A DNA stretch of 64,000 nt from Centipeda periodontii DSM 2778 (GTDB lineage Bacteria; Bacillota; Negativicutes; Selenomonadales; Selenomonadaceae): positions 101,854 through 165,853 of the forward strand of contig NZ_GL892076.1 of NCBI RefSeq assembly GCF_000213975.1. Reading direction: 5' to 3'. Numbering within the stretch: the first letter of the stretch is position 1; each line of letters begins with the position of its first letter. The notes under the pieces were generated by a model that was given only the letters and a program-made list of their open reading frames with translations, was not told where the DNA came from and made no database searches. Below are positions 5,116 to 58,503 of the stretch, piece after piece. A program made the translations under genes and the position numbers.

Positions 5116-5208
5116 AGAATTTTATATACCGTTGGAAGGATTTATGCGGCTGGGATGGAATTGTTTCTTCTAGAGTCTGTTTTTCACCATAAGAAGAGGA
5201 GGCGCCGT

Positions 5209-6639
5209 ATGAAATCCAACTTTGCATTCTTAGAGAAGCTCAATCCGGAGGCATATCAATGCCTGTACAAAGCAGAGTCACAGGTACGCATTGACTACAA
5301 CATAGGAAATAACGTGCGCAAAGCATTGGAGGCAATTATATATGAGCTGCTCCGAGAGCGAAAACTGAGCGAAAAGGCAGAGAAAGCTGCGCGGAGCGAA
5401 TGCAGAAAATGGGACTTGTTCGACAAAATATCCGCCTTGCAAAACACTCAGTTTCTGACCAAAATGGGCTGGCTAAAGCAGGAACAGAAAGTATCACAGC
5501 GCCCCTTTCTCCCCCCACTCGGCAAAATCTCGTATATGAAAGAGGATCACACCGCCGATAAAGCGGATGGCTACACCTTTTTGCGCCGGTTCGGCAATCA
5601 GGATTCCCATATCAAAAATCCTGCCGATACCGACCCAAAAATACAGGTGCTGTCGGATTATCCACATGCCGTACGCGCACTGAAGGTCATTTACAAGCTG
5701 CTGTACCAGATCTACCAAGGGCGCGTGGAAGGGCTTTCCAAGGAATTTCACGAGGAATACATGCCCATTGGCAGCTTCCATGTCGACAAGGCGTATGTAC
5801 CGAATGATCAGAAATGGTCCGGCTGCAAAACGGAGTTTTTGGCGCATCATGATTCGGATGGGGATGAGCGTAATCGCAGCTATGCCATTTTGCGGCTCTA
5901 TGAAAAGGATACGGAGCGCCGTGAATTTCTGAAACACAAAATTGATGCCATCCACCGCATAAAAGACCTCACCCCGTATGGGATTCGCGGAATGTCTGAG
6001 ATCCGTGAAATCTGTCCCATGAACAACCCGAGTCCGTTTTACATCATCGCCTACATCTTCCCTCACGAGCCCATTCCCCTGTCGGATGCGCTGCTGCAGT
6101 CCATCACGATGAAAAATCGCTTGCAGATCTGCACGCAGGTATGTTACTGCCTGAAAGAACTGCATGATTTGAATCCGCCGATCTATTACCGTATGCTCTC
6201 TTATGACAGCATCTACCTCTGCAATTACAGTCAAGGAGAACAAAAGCGTTGGGCTCCCTATCTGGCGAATTTCGACTTTGCCAAGATCATCGAGAATGAT
6301 GGCGTTACCGTATTGCCTGAGGCCAATGACAGTCTCACAGAAATTCGGGAGCAGAAACGAAAAAAATATATTCCTCCACAAACCCATCGTTGGGAAACCT
6401 ACACCGACCGCGAATGGCGCAGTGTGGATGTATATTCACTCGGGATGCTGTTCGCCGATATTCTGTCCGGGAAGATACAGCAGGATTTGGGGGAAGATGT
6501 CTTCGAGAAGCTGGAAGAGGACTTGTCGGATGAGTTTCTCTCCTTCATTGAGAAAATGGTATCCGATCGGGCGGAGGATCGCCCGGATACCGAAGATGTG
6601 CTTTCTGCTGTCAGGAAAGAGGACGCCGCATGGAACTGA
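5209..6639 (+). CDS. DUF4145-like (HsdR N-terminal-type) domain fused to a pseudokinase
   Basis: 476 aa, first gene of a four-gene overlapping operon. The start at 5209 has a strong AGAGGAGGCG ribosome site; an upstream in-frame start lacks one. Residues 1-155 look like the helical DUF4145 domain found at the N-terminus of type I restriction HsdR: SNFAFLEK near the start, RKALEAIIYELL, and the late RRFGNQDSHI. Residues about 200-470 follow a protein-kinase layout, but the catalytic loop HRD is replaced by YYRML (about residue 325) and DFG by NFDFAK (about 354), so phosphotransfer is unlikely. The C-lobe SVDVYSLGMLFADIL is kept. Likely a sensor or scaffold for the kinase encoded next. The domain calls are from pattern recognition. 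Confidence 0.7.
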   Translation: MKSNFAFLEKLNPEAYQCLYKAESQVRIDYNIGNNVRKALEAIIYELLRERKLSEKAEKAARSECRKWDLFDKISALQNTQFLTKMGWLKQEQKVSQRPFLPPLGKISYMKEDHTADKADGYTFLRRFGNQDSHIKNPADTDPKIQVLSDYPHAVRALKVIYKLLYQIYQGRVEGLSKEFHEEYMPIGSFHVDKAYVPNDQKWSGCKTEFLAHHDSDGDERNRSYAILRLYEKDTERREFLKHKIDAIHRIKDLTPYGIRGMSEIREICPMNNPSPFYIIAYIFPHEPIPLSDALLQSITMKNRLQICTQVCYCLKELHDLNPPIYYRMLSYDSIYLCNYSQGEQKRWAPYLANFDFAKIIENDGVTVLPEANDSLTEIREQKRKKYIPPQTHRWETYTDREWRSVDVYSLGMLFADILSGKIQQDLGEDVFEKLEEDLSDEFLSFIEKMVSDRAEDRPDTEDVLSAVRKEDAAWN

Positions 6640-7478
6640 TATTTTCGCAGGAACATCGCTACGCGTATACCGATGAGCAAAAGATCGAAACGGGAAATAC
6701 GATCTATCGGGCGATCGACCGAACGTTCGAGAGAACGGTATGTCTGAAAGTCGTGCACATCGACGGTAAGACAGAACAGGAACGCCGGAAACTGCTCAGC
6801 ATTGCCAAAAACGAAATATCCATAATGACCAGGCTGGAAAGCGAGACGAATTATATTCCGCGCATCTATACGATACATTACGATGAGGATACACACAATC
6901 TCTACATCGTAATGCAATGGATTTACGGAAATACGCTTGAGCGCTTTATGGGAAAAACGCCTCCACAGAAGATCCTGCTCTGGATGGCACAGCTATGCCG
7001 CATTCTGGCAGCAATGCAGAGCATAAAGATCACACACAAGGACATCAAACCCGCAAATATCATGATTGCCAAGGATGATCGGGTATATCTGATCGATTTC
7101 AATCTCAGTATATCACCGCCGCACCGCATGGAGGGCACAGAGGGGTACCGTGCGCCCGAGATGATGGAGAACTCAAAGACACCGGATCGTGAAAAAGTGG
7201 ACATTTTTGCCATCGGTGTCATCCTCTATCAGCATTTTGTCGGGAAACGTCCGCAGCGCGGCGATGAGTATGCGCTGAGCAAGCGAAATTACAAGGAGTG
7301 GGAGTATTTCATCCCGCCCATAGAAAAAAACCCGAACATCGATAAAAAGATCAATGACATCATCGTCAAGTGCATGGCATGCGATCCCGCACAGCGCTAT
7401 GCCAACGCTTCTGCCCTATGCAATGCGCTGGATGATGCACGGAAGAGTCTTGGAGGAAAAGGAGGGCGAAGGCGATGA
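6630..7478 (+). CDS. Serine/threonine protein kinase
   Basis: 282 aa, essentially one kinase domain. Visible motifs: the ATP lysine in TVCLKVVH (about residue 35), an alpha-C glutamate in KNEISIM, the catalytic loop THKDIKPANIMI (about 135-146) with Asp and Asn intact, LIDFNLSI in place of DFG (the metal-binding Asp is kept), GTEGYRAPEMM as the activation/P+1 segment, and KVDIFAIGVILY. It should therefore be active, unlike the pseudokinase before it. Its ATG overlaps the previous stop by 10 bases and its own TGA overlaps the helicase ATG, so the three proteins are translationally coupled. No membrane segment or PASTA repeat is present, so it is a cytoplasmic kinase and not a PrkC type. Confidence 0.88.
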   Translation: MELIFSQEHRYAYTDEQKIETGNTIYRAIDRTFERTVCLKVVHIDGKTEQERRKLLSIAKNEISIMTRLESETNYIPRIYTIHYDEDTHNLYIVMQWIYGNTLERFMGKTPPQKILLWMAQLCRILAAMQSIKITHKDIKPANIMIAKDDRVYLIDFNLSISPPHRMEGTEGYRAPEMMENSKTPDREKVDIFAIGVILYQHFVGKRPQRGDEYALSKRNYKEWEYFIPPIEKNPNIDKKINDIIVKCMACDPAQRYANASALCNALDDARKSLGGKGGRRR

Positions 7479-10400
7479 GCACAGACATTCTTCTTCAAGC
7501 CGAATCAGATATTGTTACCGTGTCGTGCGGCATTTCTTTCGGGGTTACAAAGACGGCGTACGAGGCACTCAGCAGCAATGGAAAGGACCCGAACGAATTC
7601 CTGCAGCGGCTTTCCGGAGCAAAGATCCTGATCTTCACACTGGATTGGGGGCGGCCCAAACTCTTTACGGACAATGGCGTTTTTCAGTGCGCATTCCGGG
7701 ATACCAAAGGGGAAATCACAGATAACATCACGCTGATCGGCTTTGCCGAAAAGTCCTTCATGGATCAGAACCTCGCCCTGACACGAGGTATTTTAATCTC
7801 ACCGGAGCGCGGCATTCACGTGGAGTTCACACACACCAATTACGGACGCTCCGCATGGCGGAACGGTGAGGAATATTTTGACGAAGAGAGCAAAAAAGAC
7901 GCGTCCGCGTTTATGGACAAAGATACGATCACAACAATCGAAAAGCATCTAAAGAAATTCAAAAAGGACATCGAAAAGATCGAAAAGAAAACGGAGCGCC
8001 GCCTCGATCTCGCCGCAAGCTATGCAACGATGACCAACAGCCTCGAAAAGGAACGGAAACATCAGGCAGGCCGCCTGTTTTATCGGGATATACAGGCGGT
8101 TCATTATGGCCGTTTGGATCGTCAGGCGTACAAGTTCATCACCGATCCGCTTGGGGAGGAAGCAGCAAACGCATACAAGGAGGGTGTACAGGTTCAGGTC
8201 AGTGAGCTGGGAGAGAGCAAAACAGCCGAAATATACGAAGCAAACAAGGACGAGGGATGGCTGACCCTCCTGTTCAACCGACAGCTCAATCTATCAAACC
8301 TCGAGAAACAGGGCTATTTGGAACTCTCCATATCGGAAGTGTGTATGGATGTCCAGCTCGATGCCGTCGAAAAGCTGCGCAACGGAACAGCAGCGGCAAA
8401 ATACATCAATCACGTATTCGGAAAAAGAAGTACATTGGGCTTTACGGAGCAGGATCTGTCCTCTTGGGAGCGGCAGCTGCGCGAAGATGCGAAAAGTCCC
8501 AAGAACGAAAGCCAGATACAGGCCATCCTAAGCGGCGTTCGTGCAAAGGATATCCTTCTCGTCATGGGACCGCCGGGTACCGGAAAGACCACGGTCATCC
8601 TTGAGTGGGTACGCCACTTTGTACGACAGGAGGAAAAACGCGTCCTCATCTCTTCGCAGAACAACAAGGCTGTCGACAACGTGTTGGAGCGCATGACCGG
8701 GGAAGACGGCATCAACATCATACGGATCGGTTCTGAGGCGAAGGTGCAGGACAATGTAAAAAGGTATTTATTTGAACGCAAGCTTGAAAACCTGCGCAAG
8801 GATATTGAAACATCCGTAACCGCAAATCTCTTTCATCTGAATCGACTGGAAAAAACATGGAGTGATATTATCCATCGCGTGGAGCTCCTTGTGATCGCCT
8901 TTGACACACAGACGGAACACGGTATAGCCTTCCGCCGCGAGGCGCCGACCCGCCTTATGGCACCACGGGCGCATTTTTTTCGTGCGCGTGAGAAAGAACG
9001 ATCCGTCAAGGAGGAAATCGCATATACGGAACAGGAATGCCAACGGCTGAACGAACAAAAAAATGAATATGCGCGCAAAAGCGTCGGATGGGCGACCGTA
9101 CCGTACTGGCTGGGCAAGCAGTGGATTCGCTTCACACACGCGAGAAAGCAGAGAAAACTGAAACAGCTGAATGAGCTCGGCATCCTGTGTCATGAGGAAC
9201 ACTGCGCCGCGAGGAACAACTACAAAGCAAGCCGCGAGGAATTTCGCAAAGAGATTTTCCTGCCCTATGCCGCATCCCGTGTGATGCGGAGACAGCGGCA
9301 GCAGGAGGTGCTGCACGCGTTGGGTGTCCTCGACTTCGGATTCTTTTCGGCGCTCAGAACAGAGGAAGCACGGCAAAGCATTCAATCCCCGGCGCAGGTG
9401 AAAAGCTATCGAGAGAGCGCCGCACGGGAGCTGCAGCGGCTAAAAAATGTTCGTGCCCTCGTAAGCGAGTGGAAAGCGGACGGACTTTCACAGCAGAACT
9501 ACACCTTGAAAAATCTTCTTTTGAAGTCCGTAAACCTTGTCGGCGCCACGTGCATCGGCATCAATTCGCAAAAGCGTTTTGCGGATCTGGACTTCGACGT
9601 AACGATCATTGACGAGGCAGGACAGATTCAGCTGCACAACGCATTGGTCCCGATGAGCGTATCCAACAAGCTGATCATGCTGGGAGACCACAAGCAGATC
9701 CCACCCATGACAGAGGAAGCCATGCTGACCGCCTGCAAAGCCCACGGAATCGAAACAGAGCTTTTGGAAAAGAGCCTGTTTGAAAAGCTCTACGAGGAGC
9801 TGCCGGCAGAGAACAAAATCATGCTCGATACACAGTACCGCATGCCGGCGGAGATTGCAGACACCCTGTCAAAATGGTTTTACGACGGAAAATATCTCTC
9901 TTGGGAGGGGAAAAAGGCACTTCCCGGAAAATTGCCCTTCCTGTCTCAAAAGCCCTATATCATCATCGACACCTCTGATGCAGGTGCACAGAGATTCGAA
10001 GAGTCAACGGGGAAAAACGGGGCACAGAATGAATACGAGGCAAAAATCATCATCTCCATTCTGAAAGCGATGAGCTGTATTCCGGGCTATCTGGACGATC
10101 TCCTGTCCTCCAAAAAAGAAGGTGAGCAGGAGAAGCTGCAGGAGGTCATCGGCATCATCTCCGCGTATAAACGACAAATCCAATACATACGCGAGAAGAT
10201 CGAAACCGTCTTCGACGATCCCGATGCCCCCAATATGGCAGCAACACTGGACAGTTTTCAGGGACAGGAACGCAAGCTGATTTTTTACAGTTTCACACGC
10301 AGTGCAAACAAGGCTCCGCAGCGGCCGCGCATCGGCTTCATGAAGGAACTGCGTCGGCTGAACGTCGCCATGTCAAGGTGCAAGCAGACGCTCGTCCTGA

Positions 10401-10612
10401 TTGGAGACATGGAGTTTCTCTCCTCCTGTATGTATGTGGAACCCGTTGAGGATGAGTCCGATGAGGCGAACGCATACGAATACAGCGAAAAACGCTTCTC
10501 CGAGTTCATGCGTCAGCTCTTGCAGGATGTCGATGCCGGCAGCGGAGAACGCATGAGCAGCCATGTGTTTTTCCAAAAGATGAAGGAGTTGGGCGTTCAT
10601 GTGGAAGAATAA
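7475..10612 (+). CDS. SF1 DNA2/UPF1-like helicase (COG1112 type)
   Basis: 1045 aa. Motifs in order: Walker A GPPGTGKTT (about residue 365), Ia SSQNNKAVDNV, motif II IIDEAGQ (about 711), motif III LGDHKQIPP (about 735), motif IV QYRMPAE (about 785), V DSFQGQE (about 926) and VI RRLNVAMSR (about 958). This order and the Q-Y-R-M and F-Q-G-Q-E motifs define the UPF1/DNA2 superfamily 1 group. Residues 1-350 are unrecognised, with a lysine-rich coiled coil near 150-180; a second helical insertion lies between Ia and II (about 430-640). There is no nuclease motif that I can recognise. The start is the ATGA overlap with the kinase gene, preceded by GGAGGGCGAAGG. Confidence 0.9.
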   Translation: MSTDILLQAESDIVTVSCGISFGVTKTAYEALSSNGKDPNEFLQRLSGAKILIFTLDWGRPKLFTDNGVFQCAFRDTKGEITDNITLIGFAEKSFMDQNLALTRGILISPERGIHVEFTHTNYGRSAWRNGEEYFDEESKKDASAFMDKDTITTIEKHLKKFKKDIEKIEKKTERRLDLAASYATMTNSLEKERKHQAGRLFYRDIQAVHYGRLDRQAYKFITDPLGEEAANAYKEGVQVQVSELGESKTAEIYEANKDEGWLTLLFNRQLNLSNLEKQGYLELSISEVCMDVQLDAVEKLRNGTAAAKYINHVFGKRSTLGFTEQDLSSWERQLREDAKSPKNESQIQAILSGVRAKDILLVMGPPGTGKTTVILEWVRHFVRQEEKRVLISSQNNKAVDNVLERMTGEDGINIIRIGSEAKVQDNVKRYLFERKLENLRKDIETSVTANLFHLNRLEKTWSDIIHRVELLVIAFDTQTEHGIAFRREAPTRLMAPRAHFFRAREKERSVKEEIAYTEQECQRLNEQKNEYARKSVGWATVPYWLGKQWIRFTHARKQRKLKQLNELGILCHEEHCAARNNYKASREEFRKEIFLPYAASRVMRRQRQQEVLHALGVLDFGFFSALRTEEARQSIQSPAQVKSYRESAARELQRLKNVRALVSEWKADGLSQQNYTLKNLLLKSVNLVGATCIGINSQKRFADLDFDVTIIDEAGQIQLHNALVPMSVSNKLIMLGDHKQIPPMTEEAMLTACKAHGIETELLEKSLFEKLYEELPAENKIMLDTQYRMPAEIADTLSKWFYDGKYLSWEGKKALPGKLPFLSQKPYIIIDTSDAGAQRFEESTGKNGAQNEYEAKIIISILKAMSCIPGYLDDLLSSKKEGEQEKLQEVIGIISAYKRQIQYIREKIETVFDDPDAPNMAATLDSFQGQERKLIFYSFTRSANKAPQRPRIGFMKELRRLNVAMSRCKQTLVLIGDMEFLSSCMYVEPVEDESDEANAYEYSEKRFSEFMRQLLQDVDAGSGERMSSHVFFQKMKELGVHVEE

Positions 10613-12026
10613 CACGAATCCGTATGACGGCAAAAAAATACTGGACTTTGTATTTCACGAAATACTGGAAACCTATCCCGCAATTCGGCCCGAAACGGTC
10701 ACGTTTGCGGCGATGGTCTTCTATCCGCTGGCATTGATCGAAGTGGAAACGCAGGAAAAAAGCTTCGAGGACTTTGAAAAGATCGAGCTTTTGCTGCTGC
10801 GATTCATACAGCAAGGCGCCGGAGAAAAAGAGATCTCTGCACTCATGGGGCTTTCTCTCGACTACATCCGTCCGCTGACACGCCTCCTGCGCGGCTATGG
10901 ACATATCGACGGGGAAGGACATCTCACCCCGCTGGGAGAGGAAGCCGTACAGGCGGAACACAAGATACAGCTTCAGACGGGCCGACAGAAAGTCCAGCTG
11001 GATGTACTGAATCTGGCTCTCCTGCCGTGGAAGCGCCAAGTGGACAATTATGTGCTCTATGAGCGCAGAGAGGCATCGACGTGGAATACAGGCGTGCTCT
11101 CCGGCCCCAAGACACTCGATGCAAAGATCATCGAGGAGCGCTTGAAAGAGCAAGGCTATGACGGTGATTTCCTGCAAAAGGCGCGCCATGTGCTCCATAC
11201 AAACCTCGAGGAGATCACGGACATCAAATGTTTAGAGCTAAAATATGCACGCTCCTGCATGCTCCTATTGGACGGCATAACGGATCCCATCGTCTTCGGG
11301 CACCATCGCGTTTCAGATGAGCACGAATTGTATGGAACGAGATCCTATGTGTGGCTCCCCTTCAGCGTCAGTACAGAGGAGCTCCGGCAGCAATACAATT
11401 TCCCGTCAGACACACTTGTGTGTGCAGACGGCGCAGAATATATGCACTCCCTCCGTCAGCTCTTTGGGCAGCTCTACAAAGAAGAGAGCACGAAGATTTA
11501 CGAGGAAAAGAATCAAACGAAACATGAGCGCGGCTCAAGCAAAGAAAAAGAATATGTATTCAAGCAGCATTTTACCAACGCGTACTTCGGCAAAAATGCA
11601 TTTCGCTACCTGCCGGAAAAAGATATGGTCTCCATCACGTCGTCCGGCATGCGTCCGGATGAATTCTCACACAACCTTTTTGAGGTGTTGTATCGCCTTG
11701 GCAGCGGTGACCCCTGCTATATTGCCCACGAGGACGCCTGTGGCATAGTATTGCGCGCCACCGCAGGCGATGACGAAGTTCGCTCGCTGGCAGGATTGAT
11801 TGCGGATACGGCACACCAACACGGAAAGGGAAAAACGGAGGGCATGCTTCGAAGCTGTTTTCATCAATGCAGACGGAAAAAGGAAGTGTCGCGGCAGGAG
11901 GAAAACACGCCTGCCGATCCTCCACACGAAGAAGGCATACGGGAGCCGGAAGAAACGATGGCGGCATCGCTGTCCAAAGCTCTGATTGAGCGGAGAAAAC
12001 AGGAAGAAACGGCACAGCAAAAATGA
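10599..12026 (+). CDS. Winged-helix domain protein of unknown function (last gene of kinase-helicase operon)
   Basis: 475 aa, not recognised as a named family. Residues about 65-110 look like a winged helix (EKEISALMGLSLDYIRPLTR, then GYGHIDGEGHLTPLGEEA as the wing). The middle has EHELYGTRSYVWLPF and a charged segment around residue 300; the last 60 residues are hydrophilic and probably disordered. I looked for an HxKx4D phospholipase D/nuclease motif and other nuclease signatures and saw none. It starts inside the helicase gene (14-base overlap), so it belongs to the same transcript. A DNA-binding or target-recognition role is inference. Confidence 0.6.
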   Translation: MWKNNTNPYDGKKILDFVFHEILETYPAIRPETVTFAAMVFYPLALIEVETQEKSFEDFEKIELLLLRFIQQGAGEKEISALMGLSLDYIRPLTRLLRGYGHIDGEGHLTPLGEEAVQAEHKIQLQTGRQKVQLDVLNLALLPWKRQVDNYVLYERREASTWNTGVLSGPKTLDAKIIEERLKEQGYDGDFLQKARHVLHTNLEEITDIKCLELKYARSCMLLLDGITDPIVFGHHRVSDEHELYGTRSYVWLPFSVSTEELRQQYNFPSDTLVCADGAEYMHSLRQLFGQLYKEESTKIYEEKNQTKHERGSSKEKEYVFKQHFTNAYFGKNAFRYLPEKDMVSITSSGMRPDEFSHNLFEVLYRLGSGDPCYIAHEDACGIVLRATAGDDEVRSLAGLIADTAHQHGKGKTEGMLRSCFHQCRRKKEVSRQEENTPADPPHEEGIREPEETMAASLSKALIERRKQEETAQQK

Positions 12027-12039
12027 TCTTTTTGCCCCC

Positions 12040-23766: not shown

Positions 23767-24018
23767 AGATTTGCGGTTCGTACGATCAGGCATGTCCATA
23801 TGCAGCGCCCGTCGAATAAATTCCTCCTCCGAGGTCAGAATCTCATAGGGTGCGTACTCATGATAGGCATCGGGGTGACTGATCAGAACGATCTGGGTAC
23901 CTGTGCCAAGCACCGTCTCCGAAAGATATTCATCGAGCCCATTCAGGCGATTGCCCGGCTCCATCTCAACTGCAATGCAGCCGCGTATATCACGATTTTT
24001 CGCCACAATATAAGCCAT
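23761..24018 (-). CDS. Small conserved-looking protein paired with RelA/SpoT-domain gene
   Basis: 85 aa, starting MAYIVAKNRDIRGCIAVEM with TAGGAGGG at the right distance upstream; longer in-frame starts have none. The middle reads TQIVLISHPDAYHEYAPYEIL. It resembles small uncharacterised proteins of anaerobic Firmicutes (possibly DUF6718; from memory, not checked). Its start lies within the last 29 bases of the RelA/SpoT-domain gene, so the two are translated as a pair. An antitoxin or regulatory role is only inference. Confidence 0.6.
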   Translation of the reverse strand: MAYIVAKNRDIRGCIAVEMEPGNRLNGLDEYLSETVLGTGTQIVLISHPDAYHEYAPYEILTSEEEFIRRALHMDMPDRTNRKSA

Positions 24019-24622
24019 ACAGATCCCTCCTAAAGTCATCCTCACTCCTGATTTTTCCCTGCTCATACAATGTTCGCAGGAATGCGCCGATTTCTGCTGC
24101 CTTTTCACTGCGTTTGTATAGGTAACAATGCAGCCAATCATTCAATCGACGATCAAATACGGTGTTATATTGAAACTCGATTGGATAGTGAAAATGGTCA
24201 ACTTGAAAATACAGATGAACGCCGCGATAACCGTCATCACATTTCTTCCCAACACGCATATCGGAGCAGTGTCTGAACTCCTGTGGATATGCACCGCGCA
24301 GTTCATCTACCTGCGCGTAGTCAGAACATATGAGCCGAAAGCCAAGAATGTCATTATAGGTGCGCTCAACTGTAAAATTCGGATAGTAACGATCATACTT
24401 GAGCAGTATGGATTCCAGTGACTTAATGCGATAGTCCAGTCCCGATGTTTCCAAGAGAGGAATTCGCTCACGGTAGAAGCGGCGCACGTGCCTGACATCC
24501 GACATTAGTTTTTCTTTATCAATATGTGCCAACACATTCCTCAGACTGCATCCCAGTTCAGAGGTACATGACAAATTGATAAGCAATGCATGGGATATGA
24601 AGCAACCGTTATTCTCTGCCAC
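23990..24622 (-). CDS. RelA/SpoT-fold small alarmone synthetase-like protein
   Basis: 210 aa. RelA/SpoT nucleotidyltransferase pattern: DILGFRLICSDY (about residue 90), DDGYRGVHLYFQVD (about 130), YPIEFQYNT matching the EIQIRT motif (the Glu is kept), then LNDWLHCYLYKRS. There is no HD hydrolase, TGS or ACT domain, so it is a stand-alone synthetase-like protein or a ToxSAS-type toxin. The predicted start is a GTG at 24622, with GGAGGG 6 bases upstream; a TTG lies one codon earlier. It overlaps the small gene downstream. Whether it makes (p)ppGpp or modifies tRNA cannot be told from sequence. Confidence 0.75.
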   Translation of the reverse strand: MAENNGCFISHALLINLSCTSELGCSLRNVLAHIDKEKLMSDVRHVRRFYRERIPLLETSGLDYRIKSLESILLKYDRYYPNFTVERTYNDILGFRLICSDYAQVDELRGAYPQEFRHCSDMRVGKKCDDGYRGVHLYFQVDHFHYPIEFQYNTVFDRRLNDWLHCYLYKRSEKAAEIGAFLRTLYEQGKIRSEDDFRRDLYGLYCGEKS

Positions 24623-24677
24623 CAATATCCCTCCTGCTCTTCTATTACTATATCATAAAACACAGAAAGGTGCTTTT

Positions 24678-25937
24678 TCATTTCATCAGCGAGCCGTCGT
24701 ATTTCAATGTTGCGAAGTAGTCGTCAAGCGTCTGGGCACGGCGGATGAGTTCGACGCTGCCGTCCGTGCGCAGGAGAAGCTCGGCGCACCAGAGTTTGCC
24801 GTTGTAGTTGAATCCCATCGCGCTGCCGTGCGCACCCGTATCATGAATGATGACGATGTCGCCGATGTCGATCTTCGGGAGGGCACGGTCGATGGCGAAC
24901 TTGTCGTTGTTCTCACACAGCGAGCCGGTGATGTCGTAAATGTGGTCAGCGGGCGCATGCTCCTTGCCGAGCACGGTAATGTGATGATATGCGCCGTAGA
25001 GTGCGGGGCGCATCAAATTCGCCATGCAGGAGTCGAGTCCGATGTAGTGCTTGTACGTGTCCTTCTCGTGAAGGACGGTGGAGACGAGCCACCCCGCATC
25101 GCCCGTCATGGCGCGTCCGCTCTCGGTACGGACAGCGACATCGCCGAGTCCTGCGGGGCGCATGATCTCATTGTAGATCTGCTCGATGCCCGCGCCGACG
25201 GCTGCGTAGTCCACAGGGCTTTCCTCGGGACGGTACGGGATGCCAAAGCCGCCGCCGAGGTTGACGAACTCGATGTGGATGCCGAGGCGTGCCTTGAGCT
25301 CCGCCGCAAGCTCGAACATGATGCGCGCGGTGAGAAGGAACGCCTCTGTACGCAGTTCGGCAGAAATGACCATCGTATGCAGACCGAATCGCTTCACGCC
25401 CATCTCTCGGGCGCGCCGATAGCCCTCAAAGATCTGCTCGCGCGTAAGACCGTATTTCGCCTCCAGGGGCTTACCGATGATATCGTTGCCCTCGATGAGG
25501 TCGCCGGGGTTGTAGCGAAAGCTCAGCACCTCGGGCAGCCCCGCGTGCTTTGCCATGTAGTCCAGATGCGTGATGTCGTCGAGGTTGATGACCGCGCCTA
25601 GGGCGATTGCCTTTTGGAACTCGTCATACGGGGTATCGTTCGAGGAAAGTATGATCTCCTCGCCCATAACGCCCGCTGCCTCGGAGATGATAAGCTCCGC
25701 GATGCTGCTGCAGTCCGTGCCCGCGCCCTCTTCGTGGAGGATCTGAACGATGCGCGGATTCGGGAGTGCCTTGACGGCAAAGTGCTCGCGGAAACTCGGT
25801 GCCCATGTAAATGCATCGCACAGGCGGTGGAAGTTCGCGCGGATCTTCGCCTCATCATAGATATGGAACGGGGTCGGGTATCGCTCGATCAGGCGCAGCG
25901 TCTCTTCCTGCGTAAGCGGAAAGTTCTTTTCGTTCAT
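24678..25937 (-). CDS. lysA: Diaminopimelate decarboxylase-like PLP enzyme
   Basis: 419 aa, fold-type III. The PLP lysine is in HFAVKALPNPRI (about residue 52); the glycine-rich phosphate site in VNLGGGFGIPY (about 235); the partner-subunit Cys in GSLCENNDKFA (about 340, C-E kept); and GAHGSAMGFNYNG near the end. By family it makes lysine from meso-DAP; spacing and C-terminus diverge from classical LysA, so a related amino-acid decarboxylase is possible. The start at 25937 follows AGAGGAGGATACC. Its promoter lies beyond a large repeat, giving a leader of about 190 bases. Confidence 0.82.
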   Translation of the reverse strand: MNEKNFPLTQEETLRLIERYPTPFHIYDEAKIRANFHRLCDAFTWAPSFREHFAVKALPNPRIVQILHEEGAGTDCSSIAELIISEAAGVMGEEIILSSNDTPYDEFQKAIALGAVINLDDITHLDYMAKHAGLPEVLSFRYNPGDLIEGNDIIGKPLEAKYGLTREQIFEGYRRAREMGVKRFGLHTMVISAELRTEAFLLTARIMFELAAELKARLGIHIEFVNLGGGFGIPYRPEESPVDYAAVGAGIEQIYNEIMRPAGLGDVAVRTESGRAMTGDAGWLVSTVLHEKDTYKHYIGLDSCMANLMRPALYGAYHHITVLGKEHAPADHIYDITGSLCENNDKFAIDRALPKIDIGDIVIIHDTGAHGSAMGFNYNGKLWCAELLLRTDGSVELIRRAQTLDDYFATLKYDGSLMK

Positions 25938-44849: not shown

Positions 44850-47585
44850 TCAAAGATGCGGAAAGAACTTTGCAACGCGTTGGAGACGTGCGCGTTCCAG
44901 TTCCTCCCTCCGCTCGAACATCTCGCGATAGGCATGGATATAGTCGTCGATGTGCTGATCGAGCAGGCGGTGCTCCGCCACATAGCGGTAAGCCTTCTCC
45001 GCGAGCGTACGCCTGAGGTCGGCACGGCGGATGAGGAGGTCGAGCTTCTGCGCGAACTCCTTCGGGCTGCGGAAGATCAGCCCCGTCTCACCGTCACGCA
45101 CCGTCCCCGCATAGACCGTCGGCGAGGCGAGCACCGCGGCGCCGTGTCCCGCCGACTCGATGAACTTCAGATCGGACTTGGCACGGTTGAAATCCGTATC
45201 ATTCAGCGGCAGGAGCGCGATGTCCGAGGCATGCAGTGCCGCCGTATACATCTCGTACGGGACGACAATGTCACCGTCCTGCGTGCCGCCCGTGAACTCT
45301 TTTGCCTCCGTTTGGAGCGCCTGATAGAAGCCATGATCCGAAACGACACGGAAGTACAGGCGGTCGCCATGCCGTCGGATCGCATTATTGATCGCGGGCA
45401 TCAGCGGCTCCCAGTCCGGGCGACGATTAAATGCGCCGAAGAAGATCGTCACGCGATCCTTTGGCACGTCATACGTACGCCGCTCGGGCAGAGCTTCCAA
45501 CTGATTCTCAAAGAGATAGACATAAGGATTGAATTCACGCAGGAAGTCCGCGAGGTACTGCGTCGAAGTCTGCACGGCGGAGACGGCACGGAAGGAGAAG
45601 TAGTTATCCTCCAGCATCTGCTTTGAGATCACCGGATGGTCATCCAGCTCATGGAGCAATACATTCCCCTGTGTTCCATACTTTGCAAGGATTTGGTTCA
45701 CGGGTGAATCACAGTTGATAAAAGCTCTTTCAAACAGGATAAAACTATCATGAAGATCCCGAAGACCATACAGATCGAGCGCCTCATCTCCTCGCTGCGT
45801 CGCCCCGCTTAACGAGATGAAGCCGCGTGAAACAAGTTTTGCAAAGGGAATGTCCAGTCGAATCGGTGCGCACTCCTCCACGCGGTTCATCAGCACAACA
45901 TGGATATCTGGCACCCCCGCTTCATATTCCTGACGCAGCGCAGGGGATACCAGTGGGAGCGTGCCGACAACCCTTTGGTTAAATATCTGCAGTGAATCCA
46001 GCGCCTCCCGATGCTCCTCTTCCTTCGTCAAAAACACGCGACGGCGCCAGTATTCCTCAATGAGGTGCCGCCATTCAATCACGCTGCGAACCAAGGACTC
46101 CGGATTCTGTCCCTCCTGATCGTCATGCACACGGAACAGGCTGAGCGGCCGCGCAAAGACGACGGCATCGCCCTTTTCGAGAAGTTCGAGCCACATGGCA
46201 CAGTCCGATATGGTCAGACATCCACGCGACTCCGCACGCCAGTAATGATGCGTCAGATCACGCCGCCGAAAGAGGACGGCGGAGGGCTCGCCCAAAAAGT
46301 TGGTACAGTTTGCAAGCGTCATATAGCCGACGAACGAGCCACGAAAGCCTCCATAGGTCCCATGGATGGGCGGCGCGTCCTCCCACTGTCCCAGAAACAT
46401 TCCATCCCCATCAATAACACCGCGCACCGATGTGACAAGGGTTACCGTCGGCTCTGAGAGGAACGCATCGACCATCCGCGTTATTTTATCCGGCAGGAGG
46501 ATATCATCGTCCATGCACCACTGCAGGAACTCCCCCTGTGCCAGGTGCTCGAACGGCATAAAGTTCTCTGCCTTGGTTTTCGCCATTTTATTCCGGACAT
46601 AGCGCACGCGTATATCATCCTGATATGCCTGCATCAGCTCCTCGGTGCGGTCATCTGTAGAGTTGTCACAGACAATGATCTCAATATTGGGATACGTCTG
46701 TGACCGCGCACTTTCAAGCGTCTCACGGAAGTACTCCGGGCGGTTATACGTCGGGATCATGATGCTGACAAGCGATGTCCTGAGGAACGCCGACCGCCCA
46801 CTTGCATGAATGAGCGGCATATTCTTTGTCCACACGATACCGCCCAGTGTCTCTTGCAGAATCGTTTCGGGCACGCCGATGTCGATCCCCCACCGCTGCA
46901 ACAGGAGGGGGCGCGCCTCCGATCGGGTCAGATCGTAGAGGTCGCAGCTTCCCGCGCCCCTGTGCACAAAGTAGACGGGAGCGCGCAGGAGGTGGAACCC
47001 ATCGTATTTCAGACGGAACGAAAGATCAAGATCGGCGCCGCCGCCCGCGAACGCCTCATCGAACCCATGTACCTGCTGAAATGCAGAACGCCGCACAAGC
47101 AGGGCAACGTGCTCGAGGAACAGGCTCTCCGACGGGCTCGTCAAATGTCTGCTGACCCATGCGGTCGGATCCTCGCCGGACGCCCTCATCTCCTCGTCCT
47201 TCAGGTACTGCCACAAAAATTGTGTGTGATTGGAGAACGGACCGACGGCAGCGATCTCTTCGTGCAGCAAAAGGGTCTCCAAGAGCTTCTGAAAGCCCTC
47301 TGCCGTAAGGATAACGCCCTCCTGCAGAAAGAGGAACACTTCGCCTGAGGCAAGTGCGGCACCGTGATTCGAGAGTGCTGCAGGCGCAGTTGTGGCAGAT
47401 GGGCACACGCGGCACGGCAGACCGTGCATCTCCTTTCGCACGGTCTTTTCCATCGCCGCCGATGAAGTGATGATCAGCTCTGTATCGATGCGCAGAGCCG
47501 CAACAGAGGAGAGTGCCGCCTCTGCCGTCTCGCGCAGATACGCCCCTTCCTCTGTGGCTGTGAGGATAATGCTGAGCGCACTCAT
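44850..47585 (-). CDS. Multidomain glycosyltransferase (two GT2-like modules plus GT-B-like C-terminal module)
   Basis: 911 aa, last gene of the glycosyltransferase cluster. Residues 1-260: a GT2-like module with FGFDEAF-type sequence (QVHGFDEAFAGGGADLDLSF) but few sugar-binding Asp residues at its start. About 275-480: a clear GT2 domain (VSIMIPTYNRPEYFRETLES, IIVCDNSTDD, WCMDDDILLPDK). About 570-890: a GT-B-like module ending KFIESAGHGAAVLASP and LIFRSPKEFAQKL, like GT4 enzymes. It starts inside the stop of the TPR gene (ATGA). It probably extends a glycan on flagellin; donor sugars are unknown. Confidence 0.8.
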   Translation of the reverse strand: MSALSIILTATEEGAYLRETAEAALSSVAALRIDTELIITSSAAMEKTVRKEMHGLPCRVCPSATTAPAALSNHGAALASGEVFLFLQEGVILTAEGFQKLLETLLLHEEIAAVGPFSNHTQFLWQYLKDEEMRASGEDPTAWVSRHLTSPSESLFLEHVALLVRRSAFQQVHGFDEAFAGGGADLDLSFRLKYDGFHLLRAPVYFVHRGAGSCDLYDLTRSEARPLLLQRWGIDIGVPETILQETLGGIVWTKNMPLIHASGRSAFLRTSLVSIMIPTYNRPEYFRETLESARSQTYPNIEIIVCDNSTDDRTEELMQAYQDDIRVRYVRNKMAKTKAENFMPFEHLAQGEFLQWCMDDDILLPDKITRMVDAFLSEPTVTLVTSVRGVIDGDGMFLGQWEDAPPIHGTYGGFRGSFVGYMTLANCTNFLGEPSAVLFRRRDLTHHYWRAESRGCLTISDCAMWLELLEKGDAVVFARPLSLFRVHDDQEGQNPESLVRSVIEWRHLIEEYWRRRVFLTKEEEHREALDSLQIFNQRVVGTLPLVSPALRQEYEAGVPDIHVVLMNRVEECAPIRLDIPFAKLVSRGFISLSGATQRGDEALDLYGLRDLHDSFILFERAFINCDSPVNQILAKYGTQGNVLLHELDDHPVISKQMLEDNYFSFRAVSAVQTSTQYLADFLREFNPYVYLFENQLEALPERRTYDVPKDRVTIFFGAFNRRPDWEPLMPAINNAIRRHGDRLYFRVVSDHGFYQALQTEAKEFTGGTQDGDIVVPYEMYTAALHASDIALLPLNDTDFNRAKSDLKFIESAGHGAAVLASPTVYAGTVRDGETGLIFRSPKEFAQKLDLLIRRADLRRTLAEKAYRYVAEHRLLDQHIDDYIHAYREMFERREELERARLQRVAKFFPHL

Positions 47586-48484
47586 GATTTCAGCGTACGC
47601 AGCAGCGTGAAGTCTGCCATCCGCATCTTTGCGGCCACCTGAATCGCCTTATCCCGTTCGCCCATCTCGTGCAGAAGGAGTGCCATGTTCCTGAGCGTCG
47701 CATCACAGCCCGGATCGAGATGCAGGGCTGCCGTGAGCAGCACCTTTGCCCCCGCATAGTCATCTGCGACATATGCCGCGCCCGCGAAGGCGTTCAACGC
47801 CTCCATTTTTTCCACGGGGCGAATCGCCTGCGCAAGGATCTCCGCCGCCCGCTCCTCGGCATCTGCGGTGCTTGCGACAGGTACTGCCGGAGCGACAGGC
47901 TGCGGGACGGCAAGCGGCGCTGTGACGGCAGCTGCAGCAGGCGCCTGCTGTACGGGCGCTGCACCGAGCCCCAAAAGCGCCGCAAGGTGCGGATACTCCG
48001 CACGCGTCCTCTCCGGCGTGAGGCGTGCATCGAGCCCTGCGAGGCGGCTGATCTCCGTACGCTGCGCAGAGGAAACTGCACGCCCGTGCACAGAAAGGAT
48101 ATTCTCAAAGAGCTTCAGCGCATCGTCCGGACGCTTCTCACGCCGACAGATGCGCGCAAGCAGAATGCGTGCATCCACATTGCCGGCATCGCGCGAGAGC
48201 ACATTCGTCACCCAAGTTGCCGCACGCGTATAGTCGCCGAGCTCGAAGTAGGCACGCGCAACATCCCCGAAACACTCTTCCGGCGGATTTCCCTGCGCGA
48301 TCATATCGGCAAAGGAATTGATGACCTCTGCATACTCCTTTTTCTCCACATGCTTACGAATCTGTTCGATCGTTGCAATTTTCTTCTCTGCCATCGTCAT
48401 CGTCCCTTTCGCATTACGCTTTTCTTCCCGACGTGCACGCTTTCTGCGCGTGCGCTCTGCACGGCTCTTGTTGCGTTTCTTCAT
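47582..48484 (-). CDS. TPR-repeat protein with basic N-terminus
   Basis: 300 aa. The N-terminal 28 residues are strongly basic (KKRNKSRAERTRRKRARREE), then TPR-like helical pairs (YAEVINSFADMIAQG; YFELGDYTRAATWVTNVL; RRPDDALKLFENIL-like), an Ala/Pro linker (about 165-200) and more TPRs (YAGAKVLLTAALHLDPG). Start 48484 has GGGAG 10 bases upstream; an alternative start at 48400 (MTMAEKK) follows AAAGGGA and would remove the basic segment. It is coupled to the glycosyltransferase gene after it. Possibly a scaffold for flagellin modification; no catalytic motif is seen. Confidence 0.7.
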   Translation of the reverse strand: MKKRNKSRAERTRRKRARREEKRNAKGTMTMAEKKIATIEQIRKHVEKKEYAEVINSFADMIAQGNPPEECFGDVARAYFELGDYTRAATWVTNVLSRDAGNVDARILLARICRREKRPDDALKLFENILSVHGRAVSSAQRTEISRLAGLDARLTPERTRAEYPHLAALLGLGAAPVQQAPAAAAVTAPLAVPQPVAPAVPVASTADAEERAAEILAQAIRPVEKMEALNAFAGAAYVADDYAGAKVLLTAALHLDPGCDATLRNMALLLHEMGERDKAIQVAAKMRMADFTLLRTLKS

Positions 48485-48566
48485 TGAGATATCGCTCCCA
48501 TATCATCTCATATGCCGCTTCCACGGCGCGGACATAGCTGTGGAGCCCATCATTAAACCAATCGGA
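48414..48566 (-). pseudogene. C-terminal remnant of a GT41 (OGT-like) gene
   Basis: A frame of about 50 codons between stop codons, running through the intergenic space and into the start of the TPR gene, reads SDWFNDGLHSYVRAVEAAYE then MIWERYLNEE. This resembles the C-terminal helix of the neighbouring GT41 genes (GYGAAVGAAYEQLWSAY in the protein ending at 51421). There is no start or ribosome site. It looks like the end of a deleted paralogue. Confidence 0.45.
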
Positions 48567-48645
48567 TTATGCGGTAACCTATGCAAATGTTCATATCATG
48601 CCTTGCCCATCTGCATATGCTTCCTGCATTCCGGCAAGACTGCGT

Positions 48646-51366
48646 TCAAACGAATCCCTGCTGCGCTTCCCAGTCCGCCCAGATCGCACGATACCATTCC
48701 TCCATCTCACGAATATAACGCTCCTGGTCCATGACCGGCGATGCCTTCATCCGAGGGCGCAGTTCCCTATGCAGAGCATCGAGCAGATCGAGATTCCCCG
48801 CCAGTGCCACCGCCGTCTCGACGTAGTCCGAAAGCTGCTCAGAGGCAAGATCTGCAAGCCCGATATTCGCCAAGAGGCTGTAAGTAAAGCGCGTGCTGTG
48901 CCGCTCCGTATAGTAGGAGACGACGGGCACACCCATGTAGAGCGCATCGCAGCTCGTTCCGCCGCCCGGCCACGGGAAGGTATCGAGCGCAATGTCCACA
49001 TCGAGATACCGCAGCATATAGTCCGATGTCGCGCCCTCGAACTGCACGCGGCTCATATCAAATCCGAGCCGCTGCAGGCGATCATACGCCAGTACAGCAA
49101 TCCCCCGCCCCCCATAGGCACTGTTCTTTAGTAGGAGGCGTGCATTCGGGACACGTTCCAGTATCGTGCGCCATGCCAGGAGCATCTCATCCTGCAGCTT
49201 TGCGTACTTATTGAACGAAGCAAACTGAACATAGCCCTTCGCACGTGCCGGTGTTCCCTCGGATGCAGGCAGGCTCGTATAGCCATTATAGCAGAACTGA
49301 CTCGTTAAACGCAGTAATTTTTCAACATAGACACTTTCGCTGCCGCTTCCCTCCGGGTCACAGTAGTGATCGGTTACGAAATAGTCTACTGCGGGCAGTC
49401 CCGTTGTCGCCATATAACCAAGCCCCGAAAGCTGCACGGGGGCAGGCTTCCATGCAAGGGCGGCAAGCCCGGAATTCGACGTATGCCCCGCAAGGTCAAA
49501 GAGAATATCGACCTCGTCCGCATAGATCGCGCGCGCAACGTGCTCCATATCCCGTGCATGCTCCGAGAGATCCCGCCAGCATGTAACAAGTGTTTGGAAG
49601 AATTTTGCATATTGATCCTCCTTGCCGAGACTGTAGGCGTAGACTTCGAACCGGTCGGGATCAAATCCGGCAAGGAACGGCCAGATAAAGTACTGCATGA
49701 CATGCATACGAAAGTCCCCGGAGATGTAGCCGATGCGCAGCTTTTCCTTCCTGCGTCGCCCTGCATGGGAATAGGGCTGCACATCCGCAAAGAGCGCCCC
49801 ATAGCCAAGGCTCTTTTGATAGACCTCCTGCGCCGGAACATCTGCGGCATTGAGCCTGAAGAGTCCGCCTCCATAGTAGAAGCGCCGCATAAAGAGGTCG
49901 GTCGTCCGCTGAGAATATGCCATTGCATAGGAAGATACTGTTGCAGAATCACAGACAAATACCCCGTGATCCGCACACACCTTAAACAAATTTTCAGGAA
50001 TATCTTCCACCACAGGAAGACCGCTGTCAATCAGCGCAAGCCCATGCTGCGCCCGCTCATAGATCTCCAGGTGCGTTCCGGGCGGTGTATCACTGATGAC
50101 AGAGAGATAGAGGCGTGCGCCTTCGCGCTCCCACGGCACCCCCTCAGCCGCAAGCGCCCATCGTCCGGCAAGCACCAGATCATCCCTGAAGAAATATCCC
50201 CACGCAAGGCTCATGCGTTGCTCCGGCACAAGCCGCTCAAGCCCGTCCAGCATGTGCGCCGTATGGAAAACCGTCTCCCAATCCTGTGCGCCGGCTGCAT
50301 GTGCAAGCCGTACGGCAAGCTCCTCCGGTTCCTGCGCCGCGCCGCATACAAGCACGCGATCATAGGCCCTCTCCACGGAAAACATGACCGCACCTATATC
50401 GAATACATCCAAAAGATGCCAATGCAGGAGCCCGTGCAGCTGTGAGAGGCGCGGAAGATCAGCGCAGAGCGCGCATGCCTGCGCGCCCACATCCTCAACA
50501 CGAGCTGCCGTGGGCAGTCCCAGTCGAGCCATCAACATCGCGGCATAGCGGTCATCGACAAGAGATTCCGATACAAGAAGAGGTACACCGTGCTCCGCCG
50601 CATGGCAGACATCCATGAGATCGACATGGATCCCAAGCAAAATGTCAATCTCATCATAGGGGAGCTCATCCACCAGATCGAGCGCAGATTTCTCCGTCCC
50701 CAGTTCCGCAATCTGCGCGAAGTCCTCCGCCGAAAGCCCCTCTGCAATACTTGCGGGAAGAATCAGACGAACGGCAGGCATGCGCGCAAGAAGATCCGAA
50801 AGCATCTGCCGAAGCGCCGCCGCACCGTCCCCGTACAGCGATCCGCTCACGCCGATCGCCGGCACCCCCGTATCGAGGAGCGGAGCGCGGTAGGTATATC
50901 TGTGGGCAGGATCGAACGGCGTATAGCAATAAGGAAGAAGCACCTCCCCCTCAACCGTGGGCAGTACTTCCGCAAGCTCCCGTGGGCAGTTGTCTGCGAG
51001 GGAGATCACATGCGCAGCGGGATGCATCTCCATAATGGCACAGATAGTTTCATCCGGCATTCGAAGCGAGAGATCCACGAGCAGATCAATTTTATCCCTG
51101 CGAATGATCTCTGCCGCCTCTGCAGGCGCAGCACCACCGAGCTCCCGCAGCGTGACCTCCTTCGAAAAAAGCGCCGTATCACCGCCCATGCCCGTATGAT
51201 AGGCATAGATCTCAAAGCGCAGCTTATTATAGGCAGCGAAGAACGCGGGCAGCAGATCCCGCGTACGCCCCATCCCAAAATCCGAGGAGAGATAGCCAAG
51301 ACGAATCTTTCGCTCTGCATTCTCCGTGCGTTTTCTTTCCCTACGCTTTATCTTTTTTTTCTTCAT
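48646..51366 (-). CDS. Tandem GT41 (O-GlcNAc transferase-like) glycosyltransferase
   Basis: 906 aa, with a lysine/arginine-rich start. The C-terminal half (about 545-880) is a full GT41 catalytic region: LRIGYISGDFRMHVMQYF (with the family His), DILFDLAGHTSNSGL, LSGLGYMATTGLPAVDYF, FASFNKYAKLQDEML, DIALDTFPWPGGGTSCDALYMGVPVVS. The first half (about 20-350) starts with the same pattern (IRLGYLSSDFGMGRTRDLL) but lacks that His and the late donor-site motifs, so it is a degenerate copy. By family it O-glycosylates Ser/Thr of protein, here probably flagellin. It lies 54 bases after the next GT41 gene. Confidence 0.85.
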   Translation of the reverse strand: MKKKKIKRRERKRTENAERKIRLGYLSSDFGMGRTRDLLPAFFAAYNKLRFEIYAYHTGMGGDTALFSKEVTLRELGGAAPAEAAEIIRRDKIDLLVDLSLRMPDETICAIMEMHPAAHVISLADNCPRELAEVLPTVEGEVLLPYCYTPFDPAHRYTYRAPLLDTGVPAIGVSGSLYGDGAAALRQMLSDLLARMPAVRLILPASIAEGLSAEDFAQIAELGTEKSALDLVDELPYDEIDILLGIHVDLMDVCHAAEHGVPLLVSESLVDDRYAAMLMARLGLPTAARVEDVGAQACALCADLPRLSQLHGLLHWHLLDVFDIGAVMFSVERAYDRVLVCGAAQEPEELAVRLAHAAGAQDWETVFHTAHMLDGLERLVPEQRMSLAWGYFFRDDLVLAGRWALAAEGVPWEREGARLYLSVISDTPPGTHLEIYERAQHGLALIDSGLPVVEDIPENLFKVCADHGVFVCDSATVSSYAMAYSQRTTDLFMRRFYYGGGLFRLNAADVPAQEVYQKSLGYGALFADVQPYSHAGRRRKEKLRIGYISGDFRMHVMQYFIWPFLAGFDPDRFEVYAYSLGKEDQYAKFFQTLVTCWRDLSEHARDMEHVARAIYADEVDILFDLAGHTSNSGLAALAWKPAPVQLSGLGYMATTGLPAVDYFVTDHYCDPEGSGSESVYVEKLLRLTSQFCYNGYTSLPASEGTPARAKGYVQFASFNKYAKLQDEMLLAWRTILERVPNARLLLKNSAYGGRGIAVLAYDRLQRLGFDMSRVQFEGATSDYMLRYLDVDIALDTFPWPGGGTSCDALYMGVPVVSYYTERHSTRFTYSLLANIGLADLASEQLSDYVETAVALAGNLDLLDALHRELRPRMKASPVMDQERYIREMEEWYRAIWADWEAQQGFV

Positions 51367-51420
51367 CTTCTCTCCTCTTTCTGTCCATACTCATACTATC
51401 GTCATAAATGGAGTTGGACT

Positions 51421-58474: not shown

Positions 58475-58503
58475 GCACATCCTTCCATTCCCATTCGAGG
58501 AAT

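Follow-up and report, generated by a model that had tools for sequence, protein, structure and literature searches.

Mokosh type I combines a COG1112-type SF1 RNA helicase and a Ser/Thr kinase with a partner protein, MkoB. MkoA is taken here to be a kinase and a helicase fused in one protein, and the PADLOC model for it (PDLC03920) does span both kinase and helicase. The coordinates of a longer MkoA model, PDLC03921, suggest a NERD-kinase-kinase-helicase order in one chain. The available sections of the literature include a Ser/Thr kinase domain in the definition of Mokosh type I (PMC11672841) and name NERD and PLD, with HEPN not among them, as its domains (PMC10952713); they describe its sensing and action in general terms only. 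A nuclease-type domain (NERD, or HEPN in some DndF) together with an inactive and an active kinase is described for PglW and DndF in the sections available of PMC12839542 and PMC10853773.

The locus described here comes from Centipeda periodontii DSM 2778 (GCF_000213975.1, contig NZ_GL892076.1, forward strand, 101,854 to 165,853), and this whole stretch of 64,000 nt is referred to as the window. It contains four genes, P1 to P4, with intact ORFs that overlap successively by 10, 4 and 14 bases, exactly as given in a preliminary description of this DNA:

P1, 5209..6639, + strand: 476 aa; HEPN-like (DUF4145) domain (about residues 1-170) and pseudokinase (about residues 185-476)
P2, 6630..7478, + strand: 282 aa; Hanks-type protein kinase whose catalytic residues are intact
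P3, 7475..10612, + strand: 1045 aa; SMUBP2/Upf1-type SF1 helicase with homology to the helicase region of MkoA
P4, 10599..12026, + strand: 475 aa; winged-helix protein, a homologue of the MkoB N-terminal region
Inserted block, 5116..12036, no strand: approximate ends, from comparison with operon-free genomes

The P1 start at 5209 is preceded by the ribosome-binding sequence GAGGAGG, and an alternative in-frame ATG lies at 5155. In 1-kb steps, the GC content is 48.5-52.5% at 5-12 kb against 57.3-61.5% at 0-5 kb, which bears out the GC-poor block noted earlier on its left side; values to the right vary (52.2, 61.2 and 51.7% over 12-15 kb), and further 1-kb dips of 48-53% occur in the window. Third-position GC is 0.59-0.63 in P1-P4 against 0.68-0.84 in the four called genes on each side. 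Five of the 40 window ORFs, which looked like spurious or doubtful frames, were left out.

The operon is an accessory insertion. At the flavodoxin-gene site it is absent from all 13 other genomes of the genus, each of which has the flavodoxin gene itself, and similarity to these genomes is lost just past the flavodoxin stop codon and regained just downstream of P4. The empty sites rule out a conserved housekeeping operon at the present site, as well as the conserved synteny that the preliminary description had named as an argument against defence. A second copy (L051) is present within the genus at a different genomic place. The distribution is rare and patchy: a P4 profile matches 2 of the 398 genomes in a sample of the phylum, one being the window's own. 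No relatives of P1 were found in viral contigs (one pattern, A2) or in the plasmids searched, and the plasmid and phage matches of P3 are all distant helicases.

With P3 as query, 30 loci were found, and the P1-P4 gene set is present in 16 of them. Fifteen are complete; L009 was counted although a contig end cuts its P1. One version of the operon is from Paenibacillus. This recurrence indicates that the operon is not a chance arrangement. Since the whole set is kept both in L013, where P3 and P4 are fused, and in L015, where P1 comes last, the four genes stay linked despite changes in layout.

P2 is a kinase of the active type. It matches Pfam Pkinase (E 1.4e-34) with catalytic residues K40, D138 (HKD) and D156 (DFN), and the Lys, HRD-Asp and DFG-Asp are retained in 17 of 17 P2 sequences, the window's included. 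The kinase part of P1 lacks the catalytic Asp of the HRD motif in 16 of 16 sequences and has an invariant Arg (R229, 16/16) at the position of the β3 Lys; the window's P1 matches Pkinase at E 4e-4, below the Pfam cut-off, and PADLOC PglW at E 5.2e-6 only. These motif counts over relatives confirm the division into kinase (P2) and pseudokinase (P1). T367 of P1 is also invariant and is a candidate phosphorylation site. The helicase, P3, matches Pfam AAA_11 and AAA_12 (E 9.4e-42 and 4.7e-39) and, below cut-off, TIGR00376 (the IGHMBP2 family), and its relatives of solved structure are SMUBP-2, DNA2, Sen1 and Upf1. The Walker A sequence GPPGTGKT (with K371) and the DEAGQ motif are identical in 18 of 18 P3 sequences. 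Residues 62-993 match PADLOC MkoA at E 2.3e-109.

The window's P4 matches PADLOC MkoB (E 1.1e-5) and Pfam wHTH-PRTase_assc (E 6.2e-5, below the Pfam cut-off). PADLOC MkoB recognizes 15 of 18 members of the P4 family (best E 5.8e-13), and profile comparison of the family with the four MkoB partners of fused MkoA gives E 8.1e-11 at 97%; the P4 model in turn recovers five of eight partners of fused MkoA. An MkoB family search of 199 genomes matched 48, most over part of the model only, and those matches were not used. Residues 55-121 have a winged-helix fold of the MarR family (Z 9-11, about 65 residues aligned, rmsd about 2). Foldseek gave no match for P4 at E<=0.001, and a second structural look covered mainly residues 55-121, so the fold of the P4 C-terminus is not claimed as new.

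Across 18 P4 family members, Pfam PLD gave no match at E<=0.05. A PLD hidden in the C-terminus of P4 was considered and rejected, as it had no Pfam match and similarity to the MkoB profile ends at residue 240; no relative of this C-terminal module was found. An HxK motif, which lies near the C-terminus in six of eight partners of fused MkoA, is not kept across the P4 family. PLDc_2 is present in the MkoB of L047 (E 1.7e-8) and L054 (E 4.9e-11), and the MkoB of L048 and L055 have no score for it. Two of these four partners of fused MkoA thus have no Pfam PLD, and its loss is not unique to the P1-P4 branch. Because a PLD nuclease is a defining feature of Mokosh yet was not found, the operon is filed as a PLD-less, Mokosh-like variant.

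That the operon is a divergent, split relative of Mokosh type I is well supported by these matches, and the resemblance to Mokosh proposed before is one of true homology, which in P4 extends to the N-terminal winged-helix part of MkoB only. The differences listed in the preliminary description also hold: kinase and helicase are separate genes, a pseudokinase has been added in the separate protein P1, and Pfam detects no PLD nuclease. Coverage of both kinase and helicase by the MkoA model could also suggest a decayed canonical Mokosh type I in which the MkoA gene was merely split by mutation. This is highly improbable, since all four ORFs are intact and the 18 P4 relatives have no PLD match. 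In the helicase tree, the 19 gene-set loci, the window included, form one clade apart from Mokosh type I (support 100/99), and this clade, with its invariant Walker A and DEAG motifs, led to rejection of a decayed fused MkoA; L030 was omitted from the tree because a contig end cuts its helicase.

The split NERD-type loci (L018, L020-L023, L025, L027, L028, L030 and L031), L030 apart, make up the sister clade in this tree; L050, also of NERD type, falls outside it, as does L032. The sister loci share the order of a protein with a nuclease-type and a kinase domain, an active kinase, a helicase and an MkoB-like protein, but their first protein has a NERD match where P1 has the HEPN-like domain. 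All ten long first proteins scanned have this match ahead of the kinase domain, four of them over the Pfam cut-off, and the kinase part is a pseudokinase in all five of the ten loci whose motifs were compared; a NERD domain with a pseudokinase is also the arrangement described for PglW and DndF. They also differ in having an extra ORF of about 420-445 aa behind the genes in six of ten loci and likewise in L053 or L019, seven in total. With a HEPN-like domain here and NERD in the sister group, a nuclease-type domain occupies the same place in the first protein of both branches. The P1-P4 branch has thus placed a different nuclease-type domain on the dead kinase, and the PLD nuclease is absent. 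None of the literature recognized in a limited search, seen in part, describes a split or HEPN-bearing Mokosh, which is not proof that there is none.

The N-terminal domain of P1 had been overlooked in the preliminary description. DUF4145 matches at E<=0.05 in 8 of 16 members of the P1 family (best E 1.3e-6), the window's P1 not among them; P1 of L049 also has a match (E 6.4e-4, below cut-off). Profile-profile comparison of the P1 N-terminus with 15 DUF4145 regions gives 98.5% and E 3.2e-15. Sequence homology thus places the P1 family in the HEPN superfamily, to which DUF4145 belongs according to the sections available of PMC3710099. The AlphaFold model of P1 has a mean pLDDT of 85, and the best 50 Foldseek matches listed are kinases, which leaves sequence as the basis for assigning the HEPN part. 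E23, R37, E41, N130 and H134 are invariant (16/16), and the alignment reads [RK]x3Nx3H in 16 of 16, with GNxxxH in 13 of the 15 DUF4145 regions. As this reading does not establish the classical catalytic Rx4-6H motif, the domain need not be an active RNase; it could possibly cut or bind RNA. The P1 domain also resembles DUF4145 regions that start ORFs of more than 1,000 aa, read as restriction subunits.

From these parts we infer an antiviral role, formation of a complex, a HEPN domain acting as effector and a direction of signalling. P3 and P4 would form a nucleic-acid sensing unit, and when the helicase meets foreign or abnormal nucleic acid, the kinase P2 would be turned on. Active P2 might then, as a conjecture, signal to the pseudokinase part of P1, upon which the N-terminal HEPN-like domain would be released or dimerized. 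The freed domain would cut or bind RNA and stop the infection, probably at the cell's cost. The full reading is that of an accessory immune operon spread by horizontal transfer, related to Mokosh type I but split and PLD-less, and working by such a relay of helicase, kinase, pseudokinase and HEPN domain; it is given an even chance.

In RNase L and IRE1, a pseudokinase or kinase is joined to a KEN/HEPN RNase domain at the C-terminus. These proteins are eukaryotic and their HEPN motif is classical, in which they differ from the operon; the likeness is one of working only, a kinase-fold domain controlling a HEPN-fold RNase, and no common descent is claimed. The KEN RNase domain counts as HEPN in the sections available of PMC3710099. 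A bacterial counterpart, in its working, of RNase L/IRE1 and nonsense surveillance together is a tentative reading: an Upf1-like helicase would sense foreign transcripts, and the kinase-pseudokinase pair would switch a HEPN RNase. The HEPN, NERD or PLD part would be exchangeable across a Mokosh superfamily in which the helicase-kinase-winged-helix core is constant.

The kinase itself could be the effector, with P2 phosphorylating host proteins and shutting down the cell, P1 as a regulator, and the HEPN-like part serving binding or dimerization only. P2 does score higher with the single-kinase defense models PD-T4-6 (best E 3.8e-39) than with MkoA (E 4.1e-27), the DUF4145 motif differs from the classical catalytic one, and the occurrence of HEPN-like here and NERD in the sister group makes this domain the exchangeable part. 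However, both domains found at that place are of nuclease type, and the 16/16 invariance of the five P1 residues exceeds what a bare scaffold needs, and this alternative is judged unlikely. Each part's role is open to gene-by-gene study, since the fused Mokosh machine is here divided into separate genes.

The likeness to BREX/Pgl that had been proposed stands for the pair of kinase and pseudokinase, shared with PglW and DndF along with the nuclease-type domain; the operon differs in having a helicase and an MkoB-like protein instead. It does not extend to type 2 BREX, in which PglW occurs with the PglX methylase and PglZ, neither of which was found among the 35 other window proteins (PADLOC E<=1e-20). 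A TerY-P module consists of a vWA TerY protein and a PP2C phosphatase. The TerY-P likeness was dropped, as neither domain is among the Pfam families listed for P1-P4 (the best 25 of 32 for P3). To call the operon an undescribed system was an overstatement: its layout is split and PLD-less, but it belongs to a kind already known, and a pseudokinase-kinase pair has been described in PglW and DndF. This branch also suggests that the relay between the two is a switch shared across different defense systems.

Association of the operon with defense islands is only partial. Clear defense genes were identified near 3 of the 16 loci, L007 (cas genes, assigned by reading), L014 and L016 (both by Pfam). 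At PADLOC E<=1e-20, 63 families, 25 of them listed, were matched in 119 flanking proteins of the 16 loci against one (mad3) in the 35 other window proteins, a small control from one genome, in a tally not resolved by flanking protein or locus; 15 of 134 listed flanking ORFs had been dropped as spurious or doubtful frames. A horizontally spread operon for regulation or RNA quality control, with an Upf1-like helicase and kinase signaling and no part in defense, would fit the flanks, mostly read as ordinary genes, the Upf1 and Sen1 relatives of the helicase, and an Hsp70-type gene directly behind the operon in L004 (confirmed by Pfam) and L008 (by reading). It is improbable given the homology to MkoA and MkoB, the rare and patchy occurrence with insertion at a conserved site, and the defense genes at three loci. 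An RtcR match at L003 is likely noise. A STAND-like NTPase, left out of the defense count, is encoded in the flank of L013.

As the preliminary description had claimed, the operon consists of four intact ORFs that overlap by 10, 4 and 14 bases:

5209-6639, + strand: P1, HEPN-like N-terminal part and pseudokinase
6630-7478, + strand: P2, kinase
7475-10612, + strand: P3, helicase
10599-12026, + strand: P4, winged-helix protein

P2 retains all catalytic residues of a kinase. P3, an SF1 helicase, has SMUBP-2, DNA2, Sen1 and Upf1 among its solved relatives. P4 has a winged helix and matches the N-terminal part of MkoB, the partner of the fused kinase-helicase MkoA in Mokosh type I. The claimed absence of a PLD nuclease was upheld, as no Pfam PLD match was found in 18 of 18 P4 relatives. 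One relative (L049:8007-10208, - strand; 733 aa) has a long hydrophobic C-terminal extension, as if membrane anchored; here the shared winged-helix part carries another C-terminal module.

The C-terminal half of P1 is a kinase fold in which the catalytic Asp is lost in 16/16 rows and the β3 Lys position is invariably Arg, which bears out the claim that a pseudokinase is added beside the intact kinase. By sequence comparison, its N-terminal part, passed over previously, is a DUF4145 domain. DUF4145 was matched by Pfam (E ≤ 0.05) in 8/16 P1 rows, the window's own not among them, and profile comparison of the P1 N-terminus with 15 DUF4145 regions gave 98.5% (E 3.2e-15); five column-shuffled controls, from an earlier and partly mis-stranded set, gave probability 0. 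The HEPN superfamily includes DUF4145, according to PMC3710099. E23, R37, E41, N130 and H134 are invariant (16/16), and catalysis is only putative because the motif spacing differs from the classical Rx4-6H.

A single scan of genome contigs with P3 collected 30 loci, of which 15 hold all four genes and a sixteenth (L009) has P1 cut by the contig end. P3 and P4 are fused in L013, and P1 stands at the operon end in L015. Two additional four-gene sets were found (L049 and L051).

The operon is a rare accessory insertion, as indicated by empty sites in the genus and the rarity of P4 matches. The flavodoxin gene upstream is present in 14/14 genus genomes (the window's own counted), but the operon is not conserved at this locus: no P1-P4 matches were found in 11-13 kb stretches around that gene in the 13 others, where the genes downstream of the window's operon sit shortly after it. 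Similarity to these genomes stops at the flavodoxin stop codon and restarts about 10 bases past that of P4. One of them (G006) has its own four genes at another place (L051). The P4 profile matched 2/398 genomes in the phylum sample (the window's own and G148) and two among 60 relatives (the window's own and G006).

Among the remaining 14 of the 30 loci, which are more distant, ten (L018, L020, L021, L022, L023, L025, L027, L028, L030 and L031) encode a long first protein (675-737 aa) directly before the helicase-adjoining kinase. All ten have Pfam kinase and NERD matches, the latter over the cut-off in L018, L020, L025 and L031 and weak in the other six. L050, found in a genome of the Bacillota sample, is built alike with NERD over the cut-off; its genome, G148, also holds the HEPN-type operon L049. 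In L017 and L019, the sequence starts at the contig end. A single kinase is visible in L029, and the 5-kb contig of L032 carries kinase ORFs. Eight upstream kinases were compared (L018, L022, L023, L025, L031, L050 and L053, plus the lone kinase of L029): the HRD Asp is lost in six and the DFG Asp in seven, with L050 retaining the HRD Asp and L029 both. Both are kept in 12/12 helicase-adjoining kinases compared. The P4 model, which included the L019 and L027 proteins, matches the helicase-downstream protein in 12/13 split loci (E 1e-14 or better; L029 missed) and 5/8 partners of fused MkoA. In two loci, the long first protein has a weak match to a SpoIIE/PP2C-like phosphatase at its start, followed by a kinase domain whose motifs are degenerate (L053:6345-8396, Azospirillum lipoferum plasmid, E 0.0026; L023:4646-6739, E 0.022), perhaps combining phosphatase and pseudokinase on one chain. 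In seven split loci, an extra ORF, about 420-445 aa long, lies behind the MkoB-like gene:

L018:11546-12808
L019:4505-5785
L020:11606-12895
L022:11772-13040
L023:11859-13193
L027:11304-12572
L053:13526-14797

In a midpoint-rooted tree built from 44 helicases, one clade (100/99) unites the 19 four-gene rows, a second (100/100) holds 13/15 split rows (L050 and L032 outside; the label also covers L017, L019 and L029, for which no pair of kinases was seen), and a third (99/97) the eight fused MkoA. With long branches and a midpoint root, the order among the three is only loosely readable. Because P3-derived patterns drove sampling, the restriction of the four-gene clade to Bacillota may stem from how the loci were sampled.

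The operon shares with Mokosh type I a core of helicase, kinase and winged-helix partner. It differs in its HEPN-like nuclease-type part, where PLD occurs in 2/4 MkoB scanned; the sister group of split loci has NERD instead. Both NERD and PLD are listed for Mokosh type I in PMC10952713. As claimed, P2 and P3 are encoded by separate genes. Since two features usually listed for Mokosh type I, fusion within MkoA and a PLD nuclease, were looked for and not found, the operon is placed outside that type as a PLD-less, split Mokosh-like variant. The noted resemblance to Mokosh reflects homology, and calling the system undescribed goes too far.

Foreign nucleic acid would be sensed by P3-P4, P2 would then be activated, and the signal would pass via the P1 pseudokinase to the HEPN-like domain. 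We infer every step beyond domain assignment from the shared Mokosh core, the differing nuclease-type part and the nuclease-pseudokinase-kinase layout that PglW and DndF use, per published accounts. Alternatively, the kinase itself could be the effector.

The operon might also serve non-defence RNA control. A defence role has some support from the neighbours in three loci: apparent type I-E cas genes in L007 (Cas1e, Cas5e and Cas6 among the flank matches listed), a PLD/ResIII/DUF3427 protein in L014, fitting a type IV restriction match among those listed, and a nearby NERD-UvrD gene in L016. By reading, ordinary genes make up most of the remaining flanks. On the proposed check for recurrence in defence islands, the gene set recurred (16/30 loci), and clear defence genes were identified near these three. 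An Hsp70-type gene, with a DnaJ-like frame close by, lies directly behind P4 in two Lachnospiraceae loci (L004:12385-13896, Hsp70 match E 8.5e-133; L008:12422-13957, both by reading only); the DnaJ-like frame in L004 drew no Pfam hit at E 1e-5. A 287-aa protein directly precedes P1 in both Paenibacillus loci (L011:4839-5702, matching Peptidase_M48; L016:4855-5718, alike by reading).

The lower GC content reported for the block (48.5-52.5%) holds against the 5 kb to the left (57.3-61.5%); on the right the values are mixed, and single-kb dips of similar depth also occur elsewhere in the window. Third-position GC is 0.59-0.63 in the four genes versus 0.68-0.84 in the eight nearest called neighbours. 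A further dip lies at 23990-25000 (48% at 24-25 kb). By reading only, several very long glycosyltransferase-like ORFs at 44850-58480, perhaps for flagellin glycosylation, adjoin a flagellin-like gene at 58596-59927.
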